Shown here: piece by piece, positions 11,534-48,641 of the stretch
How the letters are laid out: each line of letters begins with the position of its first letter
Numbering within the stretch: the first letter of the stretch is position 1
DNA from: a virus
Virus record (IMG/VR): IMGVR_UViG_3300032323_004436
Span: 1 to 48,641 of that record
Direction: 5' to 3' (one strand)
DNA: 48,641 nt
Position numbers and translations under genes: made by a program
Notes under the pieces: generated by a model
Seen by the model: only the letters and a program-made list of their open reading frames with translations
Told to the model about the DNA's origin: nothing
Database searches by the model: none

Positions 11534-12508
11534 TCAGCTTCCAGTGATACCCGCAGCGGCCACAGTCCGCGCAATGGTCTCTCGTTGCGCGGATAGAAAG
11601 CTGGCAAACGAACTCGGGGATGAGCCCATGGGCACAGCACCAAGCGTCGCAAGACGATCACGTACCGCTTGCTGATTTACAGCGTGCTGCGCCGCTTGAT
11701 GAAGCCGCGCTACAGCACCTTCAGGAGTACCGGCCGGAACAAACAAACCATTCCACTCCTGGAAAACAAAGCCTGGCACTGCCCCTTCATTGGCTGTGGG
11801 AACATCTGGCAGAGATGCCATTCGTTCAGGGCTCAGTATGCCAAGGGGTATGACCTTTCCTTCTCGGGCAAGCGCGACCGTCGAACCCGCAGTCACGACT
11901 GCGAATGCTAGGTTGCCAGACATCACATCCTGCAACGCTGGTGCAGCACCGCGATACGGCACGTGAGTAGCGCGAACGCCCGCTTGCCGAAGCAGGCTTT
12001 CAGCCGCGATGTGAGGGCCCGTTCCATTGCCCGACGAGCCATATGAAAAATCTGCGCCGGGCTGCTTCAGGCGCTCAAGCAGCTGTGCGAGCGAACGGAT
12101 GGGCAAGTTAGGATTGCCAACAACAATGATTGGTTGGCTCACGACCAACGAGACAGGGGAAAAGGCGCGCGCGTAATCGAAGGATAAATCACGGATCAAA
12201 AGCGGATTGATCACGTGCCCCAAAGCATCGAGAAGAAGTGTGTGCCCATCGGGCTGAGCCTGTGCGGCAGCGGCAGCACCGATCGAACCACCAGCTCCGG
12301 CTCGGTTTTCCACCACGACCGACTGCCCGAGAACTTCAGACATCGGACCGGCGATCAGACGTGCGACCGTGTCGATTCCGCCACCTGGTGGGTAAGGTGC
12401 AATGATACGCACTGGACGGCTTGGAAAGCTTTGAGATTGGCTCAGGGCGGGCGTGGCAAGAGCCGGAGCACTTACAAGCAAGGCAACCATTGATCGACGG
12501 TTCAGCAT
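11534..12508 (-). CDS. Bug/TctC-family periplasmic solute-binding protein
   Basis: A 324-residue protein with a signal peptide (RRSMVALLVSAPALATPALS) and the Bug family fold: PVRIIAPYPPGGGIDTVARL (ligand-binding loop), VVVENRAGAGG, FSYGSSGNGTGPH, THVPYRGAAPAL, LPDVPTANE and WNGLFVPAGTP. Such proteins bind carboxylates in the periplasm and may feed tripartite tricarboxylate transporters. No membrane TctA/TctB partner is nearby. AGGAG lies about 9 nt before the ATG. It faces against the phage genes on both sides and looks like cargo or a host gene stranded in the element. Confidence 0.9.
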   Translation of the reverse strand: MLNRRSMVALLVSAPALATPALSQSQSFPSRPVRIIAPYPPGGGIDTVARLIAGPMSEVLGQSVVVENRAGAGGSIGAAAAAQAQPDGHTLLLDALGHVINPLLIRDLSFDYARAFSPVSLVVSQPIIVVGNPNLPIRSLAQLLERLKQPGADFSYGSSGNGTGPHIAAESLLRQAGVRATHVPYRGAAPALQDVMSGNLAFAVVTAGSTVALAREGKVIPLGILSPERMASLPDVPTANEGAVPGFVFQEWNGLFVPAGTPEGAVARLHQAAQHAVNQQAVRDRLATLGAVPMGSSPSSFASFLSAQRETIARTVAAAGITGS

Positions 12509-13067
12509 TGGAAAAAACTCCTGCTCATCAAAGCTTCTTGGGCCATTGGAGGGCAGACCGTAGATGCAGGTGGGCTAAGTCGCAATCCCGAGAGATCATG
12601 GAAGGCGGCGAATACTCGTAGCCTTTCCGCATTTTTCATGGGACGTCATAATGCCCTCCCACGTTCCAGCTTTGCCTCGGCATCAAAAAAATCATGATCA
12701 GCGAAAACAAAGGTAGTGCAGCGAAAGATTGTCGTGTTGTACAGCGGAATTCGCTTCGGCTATTATGCCTTCACCTTAAAGAATTGTGATCGCGATTGAT
12801 CGTGAGTTCGTCGCAGGTGACGTTGCTGAAGGCCAGAGAGGAATAGCGAAACCAAGAGTGAACCTGATGGTTCCTTCCTGGCGATTTTGTATGCGGGGGG
12901 CGGAAGCGCTCGACATCGCTAGCGCCAGGCCGAAAATATGGGTTGCAGTTTGCACCTTAGCCTCGCCCTTTCAATAACTTAGCCGCAAACCCAAGCCCCT
13001 CAGGTTTGCACTTGGTTTGCACCTATCGGCGCCCTCAGCATCGCCCAACCTTTCCCGGATATCCCCC
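12509..13067. other. Gene-poor AT-richer spacer
   Basis: About 560 bp between the divergent solute-binding-protein gene and the first ParB-methylase. I see no convincing gene. Base composition is lower in GC than the flanks. Its right end holds GTTTGCAC repeats and a hairpin (described separately). The spacer must contain the promoters of both flanking genes, but I could not assign convincing -35/-10 pairs. Confidence 0.5.
12948..13023. repeat. Three GTTTGCAC direct repeats with a GCAAACC/GGTTTGC hairpin
   Basis: GTTTGCAC occurs at 12948-12955, 13004-13011 and 13015-13022; the first and third extend to GTTTGCACC. The last two are 11 nt apart, one helical turn. GCAAACC (12985-12991) pairs with GGTTTGC (13003-13009) across an 11-nt loop. 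The layout suits a protein-binding control site for the methylase genes that begin at 13068, or a recombination site; both are inference. Confidence 0.5.
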
Positions 13068-14519
13068 ATGACCCTTCCCTGGATGGCCGAGCGGATCCAG
13101 CTCCGCGCGATCGCCTCGCTGCGCCCACATGCCGGCAATGCGCGCGTGCACGACGCGGCGCAACTCGCGCAGATCATGGCCAGCATGCAGGCCTTCGGCT
13201 TCACCAATCCGCTGCTGGTGGACGAGGATGGCGTACTGATCGCGGGCCATGGACGGCTCGCGGCGGCGGAAGCGCTCGGCATCGCCAAGGTGCCGGTGAT
13301 TGTGCTGAAGCACCTCGCGCCCGCGCAAAAGGAAGCGCTGCGGCTTGCTGATAATCGCATCGCAGAGAACGCAACATGGGACCAGGCGCTGCTGCGAGAT
13401 GCTTTGGCGAGCGTCCAGGCGGCGGAGATTGACCTCACCGCGCTCGGTTTCTCGGCGGATGAACTTGCGGGCATCCTCGCGGCGGCTGGAGAGGCCGTGT
13501 CCGACGGCGATGCGCCCGAGGCCCTGTCCGCAGACACCTCCGAGAACCCTGCCGCGCCTGCGATTGGCGATGATGCTGATGATCCCGCCGATGCCGAGCC
13601 TGAGGCACCGCGCCAGGCGGTCTCCCGCCCAGGCGATTTGTGGTTGCTGGGCGCGCATCGGCTGCTGTGCGGGGACAGCACCGACGCGGCGGCGGTCGCG
13701 CGCGTCATGGAAGGCGATCGTGCCTCGATTCTGTTCACCTCGCCGCCCTATGGCAACCAACGCGCCTACACGACTGGCGGTGTCTCGGATTGGGATGCGC
13801 TGATGCAGGGCGTGTTCCAGCATCTGGACGCGGCGCTGCGGCCGGATGGTCAGGCGCTGATCAATCTCGGCCTGATCCATCGCGAGAATGAATGGCAGCC
13901 CTATTGGGAAGGCTGGTTGGAATGGATGCGCGCGCGGGGCTGGCGCCGGTTTGGGCTTTACACCTGGGACCAGGGGCCGGGCTTGCCCGGCGATTGGAAT
14001 GGGCGTTTGGCCCCGGCCTTCGAGTTTGTGTTTCACTTCAATCGCAGCGCGCGGCAGGCCAACAAGATCATCCCCTGCAAATGGGCTGGCACGCCGAACA
14101 AGGGCAGCGGGCTGCGCGCCGCAGATGGCGAGGTGAAGGCCTACACGCATATCGGGCAGCCCGTGCAGGACATGCGCATTCCTGACGCGGTGCTGCGTAT
14201 CACCCGCCACAAGGGGCGCGGCATTGAGACCGAACACCCCGCAGTGTTTCCGGTGGCGCTGCCGGACTTCCTTATGCGTGCGTACACCGATACTGGCGAG
14301 GTGGTGTTTGAACCCTTTGCCGGCAGCGGCACGACGCTGATTGCCGGGGAACGCACGGGTCGCTTTGTGCGCGGCGTTGAATTGGCGCCGGCCTATGTGG
14401 ATTTGGCGATTGCGCGCTGGCGGATGCTTTACCCGGATCAGCCGGTGACGCTGGCGGCTGATGGGCGCGATTACGATGCGATCGCTGCTGCGCGGGCGGA
14501 GGTGGCAGATGCAGCCTGA
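13068..14519 (+). CDS. ParB-N domain fused to DNA methylase (SPPY type)
   Basis: A 483-residue fusion. Residues about 5-105 are a ParB/Srx-like N-terminal domain (FGFTNPLLVDEDGVLIAGHG, RLAAAEALG, LRLADNRIAE). Residues about 185-480 are an amino-methyltransferase with catalytic motif TSPPY (224-228) before the AdoMet motif FEPFAGSGTT (414-423 region), the beta-class order. It likely makes m6A or m4C in phage or host DNA (inference). An upstream in-frame TTG (13017) exists but ATG 13068 is preferred. The stop lies 11 nt inside the next methylase gene. Confidence 0.85.
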   Translation: MTLPWMAERIQLRAIASLRPHAGNARVHDAAQLAQIMASMQAFGFTNPLLVDEDGVLIAGHGRLAAAEALGIAKVPVIVLKHLAPAQKEALRLADNRIAENATWDQALLRDALASVQAAEIDLTALGFSADELAGILAAAGEAVSDGDAPEALSADTSENPAAPAIGDDADDPADAEPEAPRQAVSRPGDLWLLGAHRLLCGDSTDAAAVARVMEGDRASILFTSPPYGNQRAYTTGGVSDWDALMQGVFQHLDAALRPDGQALINLGLIHRENEWQPYWEGWLEWMRARGWRRFGLYTWDQGPGLPGDWNGRLAPAFEFVFHFNRSARQANKIIPCKWAGTPNKGSGLRAADGEVKAYTHIGQPVQDMRIPDAVLRITRHKGRGIETEHPAVFPVALPDFLMRAYTDTGEVVFEPFAGSGTTLIAGERTGRFVRGVELAPAYVDLAIARWRMLYPDQPVTLAADGRDYDAIAAARAEVADAA

Positions 14520-15756
14520 GCTCGCCGTTGTATCGCTACCTGTAGCGGCGCTGGTGCCCTATGCAGAGAATGCGCGCACGCATTCGCCGGCGCAGGTGGC
14601 GCAGATTGCATCCTCGATTGCGGAATTCGGCTTTGTGAACCCGGTCCTGGTGGACGGTGCCGGTGTTCTGGTCGCCGGCCATGGCCGCGTGATGGCGGCC
14701 AAGCGGCTCGGTATGGCGAGCGTCCCCGCCATTCGACTGGCGCATCTGACCGAGCCCCAGGCGCGAGCGCTGCGGCTCGCGGATAATCAAATCGCGCTGA
14801 ATTCCGGCTGGGACGAGGCGATGTTAGCTGCGGAAATCGCGCGCATCCGTGACGATGCTTCGGTGGATTTGGACGTGCTGGGCTTCTCCGGCATGGAATT
14901 GGACCGGCTGCTGGCCGCCGCCGATGCTGGCCTGGATAGTGGGGATGCTGACGAAGCCCCGCCACTGCCAGTCAACCCCGTCACGCGCGAAGGTGACCTT
15001 TGGCGCTGCGGTGACCATCGGCTGCTCTGCGGCGATGCGACCAAGCTTGCCGATGTCGAGCGCGCCCTTGGTAATGGGCACCTCGCGGACATGGCCTTCC
15101 TAGACCCACCCTATAATGTTGCTTACGAGGGCGGCACGGCAGCCAAGATGACCATCGCGAATGACGCGCTGGGCAAGGGTTTTCTGGATTTCCTGCGCCC
15201 CGCGCTGACAAACCTTCTCTCTGTCACCAAGGGCGCCAGCTATGTCTGCATGTCGTCCTCCGAATGGCCAACGCTGCATCGCGCCTGGCAGGAGGCGGGC
15301 GGCAAATGGTCCAGCACCATCATCTGGGCCAAGAACACCTTTGCGCTGGGCCGCGCAGACTACCACCAGCAATTCGAAGCGATGCTCTATGGCTGGAAGG
15401 CCGGTGCGCAGCATTACTGGTGCGGCGCGCGCGACCAGGGAAATGTCTGGCATTTCGACAAGCCGGCCAGGAACGATCTGCACCCGACGATGAAGCCGGT
15501 AGCGTTGGTCGAGCGCGCCATCCGCAATAGCAGCAAGCCGCGCGATACGGTGCTGGATTGCTTTGGCGGATCGGGGACGACGATGATCGCGGCGGAACGC
15601 ACCGGGCGGCGGGCAGTGCTGCTGGAGATTGATCCGGCTTATTGCGATGTGATTGTGCAACGCTGGCAGGACGAAACGGGGCAAGCGGCGGTGCTTGATG
15701 GCGAGGACCGAACTTTTGCCGATGTCACTGCAGCGCGCGTAACCAATAGATCATGA
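14509..15756 (+). CDS. Second ParB-N/DNA methylase fusion (DPPY type)
   Basis: A 415-residue fusion of the same architecture: ParB-N domain (EFGFVNPVLVDGAGVLVAGH, LRLADNQIALNSGWDEA), then methyltransferase motif DPPY (199-202) followed by DCFGGSGTT (350-358). ATG 14509 has GGAGG seven bases upstream and overlaps the previous gene by 11 nt. Its N-terminal domain is clearly related to that of its neighbour, but the methylase halves differ strongly, so the two probably have different targets. No cognate restriction gene is adjacent. Confidence 0.85.
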   Translation: MQPELAVVSLPVAALVPYAENARTHSPAQVAQIASSIAEFGFVNPVLVDGAGVLVAGHGRVMAAKRLGMASVPAIRLAHLTEPQARALRLADNQIALNSGWDEAMLAAEIARIRDDASVDLDVLGFSGMELDRLLAAADAGLDSGDADEAPPLPVNPVTREGDLWRCGDHRLLCGDATKLADVERALGNGHLADMAFLDPPYNVAYEGGTAAKMTIANDALGKGFLDFLRPALTNLLSVTKGASYVCMSSSEWPTLHRAWQEAGGKWSSTIIWAKNTFALGRADYHQQFEAMLYGWKAGAQHYWCGARDQGNVWHFDKPARNDLHPTMKPVALVERAIRNSSKPRDTVLDCFGGSGTTMIAAERTGRRAVLLEIDPAYCDVIVQRWQDETGQAAVLDGEDRTFADVTAARVTNRS

Positions 15757-41511: not shown

Positions 41512-42624
41512 ATGCCTAGTTGTGTGAGTATAAATGATCGGAGGAGTCAAGTCTTGCTTGTTGGTGTCGATCTTTTTGCTGGAGCTGGGGGCCTGTCGCT
41601 TGGCGCTGCCGACGCCGGCGTAGATGTGCGTCTGGCGATCGAGAAGCATCCAATCGCAGCAGCGACTTACCGCTTAAACCACCCGAATACCAATGTATTA
41701 CAGGCAGCCGTGGAAGATGTGGACGAGTTTCGCGTTGGGCGAGTGATTCGTCACAATCTCGTGGTGTTTGGCGGCCCTCCATGCCAGGGATTTTCAACGA
41801 GCAATCAGCGCACTCGCTCGGCGTCAAATCCGAGGAATTGGCTGTTTCGGGAATTTTTGCGCGTTGTCGATTATCTGGATCCAGGATGGGTGTTATTCGA
41901 GAACGTTGCCGGAATCCTACAGACTGATGGTGGTATATTCGCCAAAAACTTGGAAAATTGCCTTCGCGCCAGAGGATACTCAGTCCGTTCGGGTTTGTTG
42001 GATGCGTCCCGATTCGGCGTGCCGCAACGTAGGACGCGGTATTTTGCCATTGGGTGCCGCGATGGCAGTCCGCCAGCTCTTCCGACTGGCTCAGATCGAC
42101 CGCCACCAAGCGTCTCGGATGCGATAGGCGACCTGCCGTCTCTCACAGTTGGCGCGGTGCACGGCCATCTTCCCTACTCGGAGCCTCCCCGTTCGGCGTT
42201 CGCCAAACGACTACGCGGACGACTAACGGAATGCGATGGTCACCTAGTCACGCTGAACGCCCCCGAAATCGTTGCACGATACCCCTTTATCCCGCAGGGA
42301 GGGAACTGGCGGGATATTCCTGGAGACCTTATGGCTTCCTATACTGACCGGTCACGCTGCCATACCGGAATCTATCGCCGGCTTCACAGCGGCCAACCTT
42401 CTATCGTGATAGGAAATTTCAGGAAAAACATGCTCTTGCACCCTTTCGAGCACCGCGGCCTTTCCGTTCGAGAAGCGGCTAGGCTGCAGTCGTTCCCTGA
42501 CCGGTATCAGTTTTCTGGTTCGATCGGGCTTCAGCAACAGCATGTTGGAAACGCGGTGCCACCCCTGCTTGCGAAGGCAGTCTTTGCCGCGATTGTCGCG
42601 GCGGCCGACGGTTGCGCATCATGA
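41512..42624 (+). CDS. C5 cytosine DNA methyltransferase of the putative defence operon
   Basis: A 370-residue complete m5C methyltransferase. Motif I VDLFAGAGGLSLG starts near 19; motif IV GGPPCQGFS has catalytic Cys91; motif VI is FENVAGI; FGVPQRRTRYFAIG carries motif VIII; the C-terminus has HVGNAVPP (motif X). The target-recognition region between VIII and IX is short. It likely methylates DNA to mark self (inference). Its stop overlaps the HD-domain gene by 4 nt (ATGA). Confidence 0.9.
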   Translation: MPSCVSINDRRSQVLLVGVDLFAGAGGLSLGAADAGVDVRLAIEKHPIAAATYRLNHPNTNVLQAAVEDVDEFRVGRVIRHNLVVFGGPPCQGFSTSNQRTRSASNPRNWLFREFLRVVDYLDPGWVLFENVAGILQTDGGIFAKNLENCLRARGYSVRSGLLDASRFGVPQRRTRYFAIGCRDGSPPALPTGSDRPPPSVSDAIGDLPSLTVGAVHGHLPYSEPPRSAFAKRLRGRLTECDGHLVTLNAPEIVARYPFIPQGGNWRDIPGDLMASYTDRSRCHTGIYRRLHSGQPSIVIGNFRKNMLLHPFEHRGLSVREAARLQSFPDRYQFSGSIGLQQQHVGNAVPPLLAKAVFAAIVAAADGCAS

Positions 42625-43682
42625 CGCTGACAATGGACTCCAAATTGGAGCAGCTCCTCAGAGAGCGAGCGCAGGTCAGCGAGGGATTTCCTCACGCTAC
42701 TTTATCCTATTGGGCGCTGTACGAAAGCATGAAAACGTATATACATCAGAGCTTTTATCGGAGCGCAGGCGCGGGGCTTGCGGCGGAGGGCGGACGCTAC
42801 ACACGGCACGACATCGAGCACGTGAACGACGTAATTCGGACGGCTGGTCACCTCTTAGGCATCAAGAGCGGCAGCAATCTAAGCAAGGCCGGCCAGCTGA
42901 ACTCGTTTGAGGTCTTCGTCCTCCTCACCGCCATCCTTCTGCACGATGCCGGTAATGCAGTTCGGCGGCAGGGACACGAGAAAGTAGCGCTCCCAACTCT
43001 TCGGGATATGGGGAATCTAACCCAACTGACAGCCGTGGAACTGCGCCTCATAAGCACCATCGCCCGCGTACACGGGGGAACTACAGAAGACGGGGATAAA
43101 GATACTATCGCCCAGTTAATCCTTCAGCCGGTTGCTGTCGTGAACAATGTGCAAGTGCACGCGCGGCGCCTGGCGGCACTGCTGAGATTCGCGGACGAAC
43201 TCAGCGAGAACCCTCAACGAGCCGACCCTATCGCTCTAAAGAAACCTTATATCAGCAAGGCTGCCGTCGTTCACAATCTGTATTGTCAAGTGGTTAATCC
43301 AATCATTGACCTTCCCAGTGGCACCATCACGCTGGAGTATGATCTGAATCCGTCACTTCTAGCGGAAGATTATAACATTGATCCGGCAGACGACACTAAG
43401 ATAATTAGTCTCGTAGATTATATTGCCCAAAGAATCGACAAATGCGAGGCGGAACGAATTTATTGCGGACGTTTCCTTGCTGATTTTGTAAGATACGACC
43501 GCTTGCTTGTGAAGCTACTTGTTCACGACGACGACGATTTGCTGGATCGGATCGACCTTGAGCTTTCTGAAAGCGGCTATCCTTCGCACCAGCGTCGCGT
43601 AGATCAAATAAGTGAACGCTTTTCAGGCGCGATCCTACGGCAAAAGCACTGCACCCAAGAGCAGGCAGGGGCATCCGGATGA
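42621..43682 (+). CDS. HD-domain protein (HD-CE-like) of the putative defence operon
   Basis: A 353-residue protein with an HD phosphohydrolase core: RHDIEHVNDVI (His63/His67), LLHDAGN (His108-Asp109), ARVHGG (His151) and LLRFADELS (Asp192). The order and spacing fit an intact metal-binding HD site, as in the HD-CE group described from bacterial conflict systems (assigned by pattern only). It could hydrolyse nucleotides or act as a metal-dependent nuclease. A C-terminal alpha-beta domain follows. It overlaps the methyltransferase and the ATPase genes by 4 nt each. Confidence 0.75.
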   Translation: MTLTMDSKLEQLLRERAQVSEGFPHATLSYWALYESMKTYIHQSFYRSAGAGLAAEGGRYTRHDIEHVNDVIRTAGHLLGIKSGSNLSKAGQLNSFEVFVLLTAILLHDAGNAVRRQGHEKVALPTLRDMGNLTQLTAVELRLISTIARVHGGTTEDGDKDTIAQLILQPVAVVNNVQVHARRLAALLRFADELSENPQRADPIALKKPYISKAAVVHNLYCQVVNPIIDLPSGTITLEYDLNPSLLAEDYNIDPADDTKIISLVDYIAQRIDKCEAERIYCGRFLADFVRYDRLLVKLLVHDDDDLLDRIDLELSESGYPSHQRRVDQISERFSGAILRQKHCTQEQAGASG

Positions 43683-45523
43683 AGATGAATCCCTTCTGGG
43701 TGAGCGCGCCTGAGCAGCTGGCTCCAGAGGATGTTGCGCGACTATTCGTGGACGTCTTCACAGACCTGCCGAAGCTGAAAGATGCCGAAAACACTTTTGT
43801 TCTTGGCGCCCGCGGTACTGGCAAGAGCATGATGATGCGCAGCCTCGAGCCCGCAGTCATGCTCAAGGCTGGCAAGGCGTCGTCAGTTGCCTCACTGCCT
43901 CATTTAGGTGTCGTGGTTCCGCTAAAGCAGGTGGAGTTCGGCAACCCCGAACTCGGTAGGCTGACCGGCTATGCGAAGTATGTGGTTGGAGAGCATCTTC
44001 TCTGCCTAAAAGTGCTCTTTCACTTAGTAGGCATGCTTGAAAGCCTCGGTGCCGAGCTCGATCCAAGCGACGCAGAACACGTTCAGAAGGAGTTCCGCGC
44101 GCTCTACACCGCAGCAGGTGGAAACCCCGGCATACTGGAGTCGCCCCGGCCAGGCGCGGGTACGGGACCGCTAGCGAATGTCCGCTGGGCCTGTGAACAG
44201 GAGCTGATGGCGGTCCGCCGCTTCTACATGCGGAGCCCCCTCGCTCCGTCCGAAGAGTATGCCGGCGCGCTCGGCGGTTATCTGGACATGATCGTGCCGT
44301 TTGCGATGACGATCCAGCGCCTTGCCAGCCTGCCCAAAGTGCCCCTGTTCGTGATGCTTGACGATGCTGACAACTTGCCTCGCCATTTGCAAAGAGTGCT
44401 GAACTCCTGGGTGTCGACCAGGACGACGAATGTAATATGTCTCAAAATTAGCACACAACTTGGCTATGCGACTTATCGTACAATGGACAATCGTATCATC
44501 GAGAGCCCTCACGACTTCAGCGTCGTGAATTTGACATCTCTATATACAGCAGATTCCGACAAATACACTGATCGCGTTCGTGAGATTGTCCGGAAGCGGC
44601 TCGATGCAGTAGGCATAGCGACTGAAGTCGAAGAGTTCTTTCCTTTCGACCAGGATCAGGCGCGCCGGCTTGAGGCCATCAAAGAGGACATCCGCGCTGG
44701 TCGGATGCGCCATCCATCTGACGAGAATCCCAACGCTCGGCGGGGCAGCGCGCGGCCACGCGACGACGTTACGCGCTACGCGGTCCCGACCTTAATGAAG
44801 GAGCTCGCGGGTAGCTCGAGATCCTCTCATACCTTCAGCTACGCAGGCTTCCGGTCCCTCGTTGACCTGTCCTCGGGTGTGATCAGGTGGTTCCTCGAGC
44901 CCGCAAGCCGGATGTATGATCAACTTCTGAGTGAAGGAAGCAGTATGCTGCCATGCAGCATACCGGTGGCACTTCAGGACACCGTGCTGGTGGAGTGGTC
45001 AGGCGAGTTTCGGCGCAACCTCGAGCATCGCGCTTTTCCAAAGCAAGATGATGAAGTCGTCGAAGCAGAAGCGGAGGTGAGCCTTCACGCCTTCGGGCAC
45101 GAAGGCAAAGAATATGAACAACTTGGCAGTCTTCTTGACGGTCTAGGTACGGTTTTTCGTCATTTCCTCTTAGATGAATCGCGAAGTGAGAGGCGAGTTT
45201 TTTCAATTGTTTTGAATGGGAAACCTTCCACCAAGCTCATTGAAATTCTGGAGCTCGGAGTGCGGATGAGCTACTTCCAAAGAACCGACCTCGCGGCCAA
45301 AGCCACGATCTTCGGTCGGCAGCCGCGGTTCATCATGTCGAGGCGGCTCGGCCCCCACTACAAGCTCGATATATCGGGCTATGCCGCCCACCTCTCTGTG
45401 AGAGCGGCCGAGCTTGAAGTGGCATTGTCTGACCACGTCGCCTTTGCAAGGATGCGCGTCGGAGCTGGCCGCAGCGAAATTTCGCAACCCACGCTAGCGT
45501 TGGATGACCCGCAAGATGACTGA
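43679..45523 (+). CDS. AAA/STAND-like ATPase of the putative defence operon
   Basis: A 614-residue ATPase. Walker A GARGTGKS (43-50) is followed by Walker B PLFVMLDDADNL (222-233, Asp228-Asp229) and a sensor-like VICLKISTQLGY about 20 residues later, the ORC/STAND-type arrangement. The C-terminal 300 residues are helical with a winged-helix-like end (LDISGYAAHLSVRAAELEVA), and the domain is of unknown type. It probably couples sensing to activation of a partner (inference). ATG 43679 overlaps the HD gene; its end is overlapped 20 nt by the next gene. Confidence 0.8.
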   Translation: MKMNPFWVSAPEQLAPEDVARLFVDVFTDLPKLKDAENTFVLGARGTGKSMMMRSLEPAVMLKAGKASSVASLPHLGVVVPLKQVEFGNPELGRLTGYAKYVVGEHLLCLKVLFHLVGMLESLGAELDPSDAEHVQKEFRALYTAAGGNPGILESPRPGAGTGPLANVRWACEQELMAVRRFYMRSPLAPSEEYAGALGGYLDMIVPFAMTIQRLASLPKVPLFVMLDDADNLPRHLQRVLNSWVSTRTTNVICLKISTQLGYATYRTMDNRIIESPHDFSVVNLTSLYTADSDKYTDRVREIVRKRLDAVGIATEVEEFFPFDQDQARRLEAIKEDIRAGRMRHPSDENPNARRGSARPRDDVTRYAVPTLMKELAGSSRSSHTFSYAGFRSLVDLSSGVIRWFLEPASRMYDQLLSEGSSMLPCSIPVALQDTVLVEWSGEFRRNLEHRAFPKQDDEVVEAEAEVSLHAFGHEGKEYEQLGSLLDGLGTVFRHFLLDESRSERRVFSIVLNGKPSTKLIEILELGVRMSYFQRTDLAAKATIFGRQPRFIMSRRLGPHYKLDISGYAAHLSVRAAELEVALSDHVAFARMRVGAGRSEISQPTLALDDPQDD

Positions 45524-46487
45524 CGTGACCCCAATTGGTGAATTCCGTAATGCATTCGGAAGAGAAACCGTACGGCTCATCATGCGGTCAAGCTTCGAGG
45601 AGCGGTCCTGCAGACTGATTGAAGCGTTGTCCGTCGCGACTGGTCCTCACTCCTGCCTGATTTTCGCGTCCGCAGAGCGGAGCGAGAGATCCACGGCAAA
45701 TCTGCTGAGGTGCCGCGCAGCAGCCCCGTGTGCAGAAATCGTTGAGCTTGACCGCAGTAACGCTCTCAATACTGCCTTAGCAATGCAGAGCGCCCTTCGG
45801 ATTTTTCTTGAAGCCAACCACGACGGCCGTTTGATATTGGATATCAGTTCGTTTCCGCGGGAAGAATTGCTCATTCTTTTATTTATTCTCCAGAATTCAG
45901 GGTTTTTATATTCTACTGCGATGCTCGCCTACGTCGGCGCGCTAAAGATGGGAGATCGGCTTTCTGGCGATGTCGTGCAGCATCGATCAGTAGTAGGCTA
46001 TGCTGGAGATATGCGCCCTTCCTTGCCAACCAAGCTCGTTTTGTTGCTGGGATTTGAGCTTGCTCGAGCAAAAAGTATCATCGAAAATTATGAGCCGGCC
46101 GAGGTTTTGATTGGAACACCAAGGTTGGGCGAATCGATGTCTGCCGATATGCGTCTTCGCGCCGAGAAGCTGCAAAGGGAGATCTCGTCGCTGCATTCCT
46201 GTCCAGCATCTATTTTCGAGTTTTCGCTGCGCGATCCGCTGAAAACCTGTTTGGAAATTCATGCCGTTATAGGAAGTTTTCTTCATCAGAATATTGTTAT
46301 CGCGCCATTGAATACTAAACTATCCACCATAGGTGTGGGGCTTTATGCTCTTTCGAATCCTTCTGTCCAGATCTGTTACGCCGCAGTGCGAGATTATCAA
46401 GAAGATGAATATTCCGAGCCAGGCGATAATGTATTTTATCTTGAATTGGGCTCATTAATTCGACCTAATAAAATACCATTATCTTAG
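45504..46487 (+). CDS. Rossmann-like protein with D-I-S-S-F-P-R-E motif, last gene of the operon
   Basis: A 327-residue protein of unknown family. Two alpha-beta halves are visible: LIFASAERSERSTANLLRC and RLILDISSFPREELLILLFI (Asp113-Glu120) in the first; VLIGTPRLGESMSADMRLRA and NIVIAPLNTKLSTIGVGLYA plus VQICYAAVRDYQEDEYSEPG in the second. The general Rossmann-like layout recalls CARF/nucleotide-sensing domains, without any named match. The gene becomes AT-richer toward its end. Start is ATG 45504 or 45516, both inside the ATPase gene. Confidence 0.7.
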   Translation: MTRKMTDVTPIGEFRNAFGRETVRLIMRSSFEERSCRLIEALSVATGPHSCLIFASAERSERSTANLLRCRAAAPCAEIVELDRSNALNTALAMQSALRIFLEANHDGRLILDISSFPREELLILLFILQNSGFLYSTAMLAYVGALKMGDRLSGDVVQHRSVVGYAGDMRPSLPTKLVLLLGFELARAKSIIENYEPAEVLIGTPRLGESMSADMRLRAEKLQREISSLHSCPASIFEFSLRDPLKTCLEIHAVIGSFLHQNIVIAPLNTKLSTIGVGLYALSNPSVQICYAAVRDYQEDEYSEPGDNVFYLELGSLIRPNKIPLS

Positions 46488-46663: not shown

Positions 46664-46975
46664 GTGACTGTCCCCCGTCAGCACCTAAGGGACCAAACTG
46701 GCGATTTGACTAACGGAGGATTTCTGGCTCATCGTAATCACAAGGAGAGTGAGGATGAGCCAGAACTCCTCCGTCCCGCCCACGCGGGTGCCAGCCGAAA
46801 AGCTGGTCCGCGATGTTCACCGCGCCGCGCGCAGGCTCCATTCCGCCGAAGAGAATCCGCATCTTTCTGGAAGCGCTCCGCGATGCAGAAAATACATCTA
46901 ACCAGAGGGTTATGCCTTTCAGATCAAGACTGGTGCGGCATTGCAGTTGTGCTCGATTGCCATGCATAGTTGGCT
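46664..46975 (+). pseudogene. Decayed IS3-family OrfA remnant
   Basis: Behind AAGGAGAGTGAGG, ATG 46755 begins SVPPTRVPAEKLVRDVHRAA then RRLHSAEE, a match to the N-terminus of IS3-family OrfA. After SAEE the frame is lost; the continuation IRIFLEALRDAENTS is found one frame over, so a single-base deletion is present. Similarity ends soon after. No OrfB is seen. The element is inactive. Confidence 0.65.
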
Positions 46976-47585: not shown

Positions 47586-48641
47586 CTATAATGTCGGGAC
47601 CAGTTCTATGGCCGTGCGGCGTCGTTTGGTCGAGATATTGGTGGACTGCTGTTGCCCTCCAGCTTTGTAGGGCCGTGCTGGGAGAGAGGCGGCTACGGAA
47701 GCAGTCAGCGCAGTTACGATATGCTGCATGACGGGGGGACACACCCCATTGCCCAGCAGCTTGATCTTGTCGCGCCTCGTGCCTTGACTGAGGGCATAAT
47801 CGCCGTTGAAGCCCATGGCTCGCTGCAACTCATCAACTTGTAACATTCGCATTCTCGGTTCACCTCCAATCCATTCAACGAGACCGAACCGGTCGAGAGT
47901 TGTAAGTGTTCGAATTGGCCGATCAATTCGCTGCCAGCCACCCGCTCCATCGCTGCTGTAATAAACGATCAGGAATGGCACCCCGCGTCCCAGCACATCC
48001 ATTGCACGCTCGGCGCGGGCGATTGTTGGTTCAGCCAAACCGCTACCAAACAAGGGGCGGGTCTTATAGGTTCCCGTTGGGGCTAAGATTTCAAGAACAG
48101 TGCGGCGGATTCCTGGTGGCGGTTTGGGAAGCTCTGGCGGTCCATCCTTGCGGCAAATTAGAAAAAGCCGTCGACGAGTCTGCGGGACACCGAAATCCTG
48201 CGCGTCAAGCACACACTCTTTCACCTGCATATGCTCTTTAAGAGCATTGAGGAAATTTGAGTATCGCTCCCATGACTGCATCTGGATGACGTTCTCGATG
48301 ACGGCCCAACGCGGCTTCATCTCTCTGATAAATTTCAGCACATGGAAAGCTGTTGCCCTGCTTTCCTCATCTTTAACGCGTCCGCCACGCGCTGGAGTAT
48401 GGTTCGTGCACTCGGGAGATGCCAGGAGTAGGTCGACGCGTCCGATATCACCCATTAGCGCCCCGCTGGACCAGCGATCGAGACGTGCCTCAACCACCTT
48501 TGCATTCGGGAAATTGCAGCGATAGGTCGACGCCGCCATATCCCAGGCATCAACCGCCCCCACCATTTCTATACCCGCAGCACGGGCGCCCCAGGAGCTC
48601 CCGCCGCCGCCACAGAAGAGATCAACGCCGCGAATCGCCAT
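47586..48641 (-). CDS. C5 cytosine methyltransferase with Ser-Pro-Glu-Cys catalytic motif
   Basis: A 351-residue protein starting at the window edge with ATG. Motif I is VDLFCGGGGSSWG (6-18). The catalytic Cys78 lies in ASPECTNHTPARG instead of the common PPCQ. VIENV is motif VI, FGVPQTRRRLFLI carries the arginine motif VIII, and LLGNGVCPPVM is the C-terminal motif. A phage-type orphan m5C enzyme is likely. The tail is basic (NISTKRRRTAIE). No restriction gene is adjacent in the window. Confidence 0.85.
   Translation of the reverse strand: MAIRGVDLFCGGGGSSWGARAAGIEMVGAVDAWDMAASTYRCNFPNAKVVEARLDRWSSGALMGDIGRVDLLLASPECTNHTPARGGRVKDEESRATAFHVLKFIREMKPRWAVIENVIQMQSWERYSNFLNALKEHMQVKECVLDAQDFGVPQTRRRLFLICRKDGPPELPKPPPGIRRTVLEILAPTGTYKTRPLFGSGLAEPTIARAERAMDVLGRGVPFLIVYYSSDGAGGWQRIDRPIRTLTTLDRFGLVEWIGGEPRMRMLQVDELQRAMGFNGDYALSQGTRRDKIKLLGNGVCPPVMQHIVTALTASVAASLPARPYKAGGQQQSTNISTKRRRTAIELVPTL

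Follow-up and report, generated by a model that had tools for sequence, protein, structure and literature searches.

A methyltransferase, HD-CE, ORC-CDC6-like ATPase and CARF cassette on a phage record, apparently an unnamed and widely spread bacterial defence-type system

What four overlapping genes just past the tail region of a phage genome do, and whether they form a defence system of their own, is the question raised by the IMG/VR virus record IMGVR_UViG_3300032323_004436, which was analysed over its positions 1 to 48,641 (48,641 nt, hereafter the window). The window carries phage genes for terminase, portal, head protein-protease, tape measure and tail proteins, and the cassette starts 203 bp past the final tail-region ORF (41309). 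It consists of four plus-strand ORFs at 41512-42624, 42621-43682, 43679-45523 and 45504-46487, confirming the overlaps of 4, 4 and 20 nt reported in the initial annotation; with an alternative internal ATG at 45516, the last overlap would be 8 nt rather than 20. The GC content of the cassette is 49-57%, compared with 63% for the phage structural genes. An IS3-type remnant at 46667-46882 (no strand assigned) is about 70% identical to IS3-family transposase DNA from alphaproteobacterial plasmids, which agrees with the earlier mention of an IS remnant beside the cassette and indicates a mobile context; there is a small chance that the right side of the window holds host DNA past a provirus edge. 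Scanning for promoters and terminators gave chance-level matches only, and no nuclease-like ORF was recognised between 46488 and 48641. The reading that we favour, with moderate confidence, is that the cassette acts as a methylation-gated, nucleotide-targeting abortive defence module carried on phages or prophages.

Proteins encoded by the four genes

The first gene (41512..42624, + strand) encodes a Dcm-type C5-cytosine DNA methyltransferase of 370 aa, predicted to be a self-marking enzyme. It matched Pfam PF00145 (DNA_methylase; E=7.7e-53, hmmscan) and the PADLOC model MTase_II PDLC03234 (E=1.1e-99), and a Dcm superfamily match to this protein was the only addition that NCBIfam made for the four proteins. 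The methyltransferase motifs noticed earlier are intact (GGPPCQGFS, FENV, QRRTR, REAARLQSFP and GNAVPP), and the enzyme is 46-60% identical to the cassette methyltransferases of Rhizobiaceae, Yoonia and Spirosoma. Target-recognition regions of restriction-modification (R-M) methylases usually change fast. In the cassette methyltransferases, by contrast, this stretch (about residues 201-300; compared over 54 loci) has a mean identity close to that of the whole protein, suggesting that these enzymes may share a single target motif. As for a standard type II R-M system, the C5-methyltransferase is present in the window, no cognate endonuclease was found in the operon, and the other three proteins gave no nuclease domain match in Pfam, PADLOC or NCBIfam; this candidate was rejected.

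The second gene (42621..43682, +) encodes an HD-CE protein of 353 aa, predicted to be a metal-dependent nucleotide phosphohydrolase/phosphodiesterase effector. Its residues 59-207 matched Pfam PF24391 (HD-CE; E=2.7e-21, 76.9 bits against a cut-off of 27, hmmscan). The HD residue set proposed in the initial annotation (His63, His67, His108-Asp109 and Asp192) proved real: in an alignment of 50 sequences, with identities to the window protein down to 24%, these residues are invariant (50/50), as are H119, H151 and E193, and the metal site (the H, HD, H, H, D set) is intact in every one. Structure prediction, which had been proposed for this protein, gave a phosphohydrolase/phosphodiesterase-like HD fold (AF2 model, pLDDT 92.3). 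Ppx/GppA HD domains come closest to it in fold (Z to 12.6), and cyclic-nucleotide phosphodiesterases of class I are next (Z to 11.8), matches that are modest given a mainly helical protein. Sequence profiles agreed weakly with the same two folds, and together model and profiles support a predicted phosphohydrolase/phosphodiesterase chemistry of nucleotide or polyphosphate type. The nearest fold neighbours are not dNTPases and the substrate is not readable from the HD domain, two points against the favoured reading; the dNTPase 3irh reached only rank 49 in the Foldseek list, and a dNTPase function may be compatible with the modelled fold despite this low rank.

The likeness of the HD protein to class I cyclic-nucleotide phosphodiesterases, in profile and in fold, also fits an alternative that we consider unlikely, namely that the protein is an off-switch degrading a cyclic or linear nucleotide messenger sensed by the CARF protein, while the ATPase or a Mza-like partner carries out restriction. 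CRISPR CARF receptors are indeed paired with messenger-degrading enzymes. However, the Pfam name HD-CE, in which we take CE to stand for 'conflict effector', speaks against an off-switch and for an effector. The name reportedly comes from the 2023 work of Nicastro, Burroughs, Iyer and Aravind on nucleotide-targeting effectors, to which the ORC-CDC6-like family is said to be tied as well.

The third gene (43679..45523, +) encodes an ORC-CDC6-like AAA+ ATPase of 614 aa, a predicted DNA-scanning switch. It matched Pfam PF24389 over nearly its full length (residues 4-569; E=2.5e-90, 304 bits against a cut-off of 27, hmmscan). The Walker A and B motifs described earlier are present as GARGTGKS and MLDDAD and are kept in 59 relatives, with DDA invariant in 59/59. 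The label AAA/STAND held for its AAA+ part; the STAND part was abandoned, since ORC/CDC6-like is not specifically STAND and, in Pfam, nSTAND scores were only weak and the ORC-CDC6-like score far stronger. PADLOC models gave only weak BrxL noise with this protein, and a PDB sequence search found no solved homologue. The ORC/CDC6 ATPases of Ssp systems have been proposed to encircle and scan DNA (PMC10853773). By analogy with them, and from the family name, the cassette ATPase is predicted to scan DNA and would provide a DNA-sensing step.

The last gene (45504..46487, +) encodes a protein of 327 aa containing the segment DISSFPRE. Residues 16-320 matched the PADLOC model CARF6 PDLC01917 (E=2.8e-82), and the AF2 model (pLDDT 91.5), which the initial annotation had called for, was a tandem CARF fold. 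The best structural match was Can1 (6sce_A; Z 14.4, residues 22-299, both domains), followed by Can2, Card1 and Csm6 (Z 12.5-13.5, on the C-terminal CARF domain), with Cam1 also among the matches. The predicted CARF fold is Rossmann-like, in keeping with the layout first suggested, and profile and fold together ruled out a metabolic enzyme. A PDB search with the CARF profile gave scores for low-complexity designed proteins and nothing useful. The segment DISSFPRE looked conserved by eye, and so it is: its D113 is invariant (59/59) and its E120 nearly so. R34, G183 and R188 are invariant like D113, and the invariant or nearly invariant residues sit after strands 1 and 4, as R34 and D113/E120 in the first half and, at the same strand places in the second half, as G183/R188 and K272/S274/T275. 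Known CARF domains contact their ligand after these two strands, and the conserved residues would form a putative ligand pocket.

Two CARF domains per chain are found in Can1 as in the cassette sensor, and the CARF fold is common to Can2 and Card1. However, Can1, Can2 and Card1 of type III CRISPR carry nuclease domains and answer Cas10-made cyclic oligoadenylate, whereas the cassette protein is a stand-alone CARF. The CARF6 family, reportedly named in the 2020 CARF classification of Makarova et al., is matched over the full length and with the same tandem fold; the cassette differs in that its sensor lacks a fused effector and its operon is free of CRISPR and CBASS genes.

Recurrence and neighbours of the cassette

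Searching plasmids by tblastn showed the ATPase in four records, from Agrobacterium, Rhizobium, Yoonia and Spirosoma, with the CARF gene adjacent and the full cassette in the same order in all four. The complete locus set comprises 65 other loci (4 from plasmids, 58 from a genome scan and 4 viral, 1 of the viral ones being a duplicate), and the ATPase loci span at least nine phyla. The four genes recur together well beyond the window, and a chance association is excluded by this recurrence. A CARF gene lies directly downstream of the ATPase in 66/66 loci, window included (profile count), a figure that describes this ATPase family rather than all ORC-type ATPases since the scan was seeded with cassette ATPases. 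HD-CE lies upstream in 57 of the 60 loci with room for it, and a methyltransferase lies within 4.5 kb in 54/59 (upstream in 48, downstream in 6); in L046 and L048 it is farther off, beyond Mza genes. Gene junctions mostly overlap or are no more than 30 nt apart.

The pairwise identities of the proteins correlate, most strongly for ATPase and CARF (Spearman 0.76; permutation 0/500) and most weakly for methyltransferase and HD protein (0.33). The genes are co-inherited, and these correlations point to ATPase and CARF as an inseparable core, with HD near-constant and the methyltransferase partly exchangeable. Three loci (L025, L037 and L065) lack HD-CE or have a broken copy, so that it is not strictly obligatory, which weighs against the favoured reading. 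That the ATPase-CARF pair is retained in L025 and L065, where HD is missing, is also a point for the off-switch alternative; most cassettes, however, have no other effector, which goes against it. Among individual loci, L036 (7639-9986) has a transposase insertion that splits the HD gene, a natural broken copy. L065 (5958-12711) is an HD-less variant with an AAA ATPase, a membrane protein, ThyA, methyltransferase, ORC and CARF genes, in which the membrane protein might serve as effector instead. In L025 (4612-10718), ORC-CARF comes right after HsdM, a PIN-like gene and HsdS pieces, with neither HD nor C5-methyltransferase, perhaps a variant associated with type I R-M.

Neighbours of the cassette include BREX, Mza, AbiE, type I R-M, Vsr, integrases, recombinases and Tn7-like transposition genes. 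A 2008 study (PMC2292703) described R-M operons of MORC type that include cytosine methylases and Vsr. Mza is a MORC-family R-M system (MzaB, C, D, E), and complete or partial MzaB-E sets lie near the HD-ORC-CARF triad in L042, L043, L046, L048 and L049. Some relatives thus carry the triad adjoining MzaB-E, with the same methyltransferase type, whereas no MzaB-E ORF lies beside the window cassette. The statement that the operon has no standard restriction enzyme therefore stands for the window but not for those relatives with an attached Mza restriction system.

These arrangements bear on two of the alternatives. Mza genes following the triad in the same five loci would supply the off-switch alternative with a restricting partner. 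They also bring to mind a backup abortive role, in which HD-ORC-CARF monitors the methylation of a partner R-M system and fires when restriction is defeated: the triad shares or adjoins the Mza methyltransferase in Bacteroidota and Bacillota, and it adjoins BREX (BrxA, B and C) in L075 and HsdM/HsdS in L025. This role is quite improbable, because a dedicated methyltransferase is the sole partner in most loci, the window among them, with no adjoining nuclease system.

As conflict families, HD-CE, ORC-CDC6-like and CARF6 have been catalogued before, and the HD protein and ATPase score above the curated cut-offs of theirs. Neither the HD protein nor the ATPase has a model in PADLOC-DB 2023, which yielded no matching system, and a literature search on CARF6 and HD-CE returned no useful paper. 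As a unit, the four-gene cassette is apparently an unnamed, widely spread bacterial defence-type system. With its genes recurring elsewhere, its last protein a sensor and no named counterpart in that database, the modification-coupled conflict system suggested in the initial annotation was supported.

Linked thymidylate synthases and the source of the CARF ligand

The commonest Pfam families among recurrent neighbours are two unrelated thymidylate synthases, ThyX and ThyA. A thymidylate synthase gene lies beside or inside the operon in 12/65 loci (the window has none): ThyX in eight (L002, L003, L015, L016, L017, L045, L047 and L075) and ThyA in four (L030, L054, L063 and L065). About 0.04 such loci would be expected by chance, assuming about 1.3 synthases per 4,500 genes. 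That only these 12 loci have the gene, and not the window, is a point against the favoured reading. The ATPase tree shows at least five separate gains (six changes by parsimony, with L075 not in the tree). ThyA overlaps the methyltransferase start in L030 and L065; the ThyX gene of L075 shares nucleotides with the CARF stop, and Vsr comes next. The catalytic motifs of the linked enzymes are intact. Genomes with a linked ThyX have one ThyX and a separate ThyA, and the single ThyX is the cassette copy where coordinates were compared (L015 and L045); three of the four ThyA-linked genomes have two ThyA. The linked synthases are thus accessory copies, extra to the housekeeping ThyA in most genomes checked.

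A thymidylate synthase has been validated as a component of another defence system (PMC13092281). In Clover, CloA is an HD dGTPase that is activated by dTTP and restrained by p3diT (PMC12265719). Clover (CloA/CloB), like the system proposed for the cassette, links an HD hydrolase effector to thymidine nucleotides; it has no methylase, ORC ATPase or CARF, and the cassette has no NTase. Most simply, the HD effector would act on thymidine nucleotides, or its regulation would depend on them.

No Cas10 or CD-NTase gene was found in the cassette, and a CBASS or CRISPR module was rejected for want of a cyclase. Among 37 host genomes, SMODS (CD-NTase) matches were found in 4. Cas10-palm matches above the cut-off were found in 9/37, most of them weak; the palm model scores in E. 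coli too, so that weak matches, probably GGDEF proteins, were not counted, which leaves a clear Cas10 in about 2/37. Even by the liberal count, 25/37 had neither Cas10 nor CD-NTase, a set that includes some incomplete MAGs and in which divergent cyclases could escape detection. The off-switch alternative needs a messenger, and this scarcity of messenger-making enzymes, in the cassette and in host genomes, tells against it.

On the favoured abortive reading, the C5-methyltransferase would mark cellular DNA at a single, constant cytosine motif, and the ORC/CDC6-like ATPase, paired with CARF, would inspect DNA and respond to unmarked or replicating invader DNA. The tandem CARF would gate the response through a nucleotide ligand whose source lies outside the operon; the ligand could derive from the phage or from damage, or be a messenger made by an unrecognised enzyme. 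The HD-CE hydrolase, once licensed, would destroy nucleotides, most plausibly the deoxythymidine/dNTP pool, and this loss would halt both phage replication and the cell. In some lineages the extra thymidylate synthase would protect or restore the dTMP pool, and in some Vsr would repair 5mC deamination.

CARF sensors are known mainly as receptors of Cas10-made messengers. We tentatively suggest, as a possibility of fairly low probability, that the cassette represents a widespread form of CARF immunity without Cas10 or CD-NTase: the ATPase, reading 5mC, and the tandem CARF, sensing an as yet unnamed nucleotide that is perhaps phage-derived or thymidine-based, would jointly release the HD hydrolase, which would collapse the thymidine pool and, in some lineages, the synthase would allow recovery. 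A conserved CARF that has no known cyclase but is tied, in at least nine phyla, to an ATPase, a methylase and an HD protein makes the orphan-CARF ligand question directly testable, and the fact that two unrelated thymidylate synthases were recruited again and again points to the dTMP/dTTP pool as a specific target that can be measured.

Carriage by phages and other observations

Carriage of the cassette by phages is not unique to the window contig. In L074 the cassette lies between the major head gene and the tape-measure gene, and in L037, a Magnetospirillum locus that is also present as the virus record L073, ORC-CARF and a broken HD gene follow the tail terminator and minor tail genes. A scan of viral contigs with single proteins gave nothing useful. 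R-M-like systems can be addictive, and the presence of the cassette on plasmids and within phage structural clusters (window, L073/L037 and L074) would suit a selfish addiction or phage-propagation module, in which the methyltransferase would mainly shield the DNA of the phage or plasmid, or stabilise the element, and the triad would kill cells that lose the methylase. We regard this as very unlikely, as the cassette is also chromosomal in many genera, and among defence genes. The human-gut phage contig L006 (MT838009.1) has Mza-type C-D-E genes, then HD and then the beginning of the ORC ATPase.

Elsewhere in the window, a second C5-cytosine methyltransferase of phrog_116 type, different in type from the cassette enzyme, lies at 47586-48641 (-), with its ATG exactly at the window edge. 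In the middle of the phage record, the ORF at 11534-12508 (-) looks by eye like a bacterial gene, one for a periplasmic binding protein of TctC/Bug type. Two consecutive ORFs at 13017-15756 (+), near the packaging genes, have N-termini that look ParB-like by eye and are possible ParB/DNA methylase proteins.
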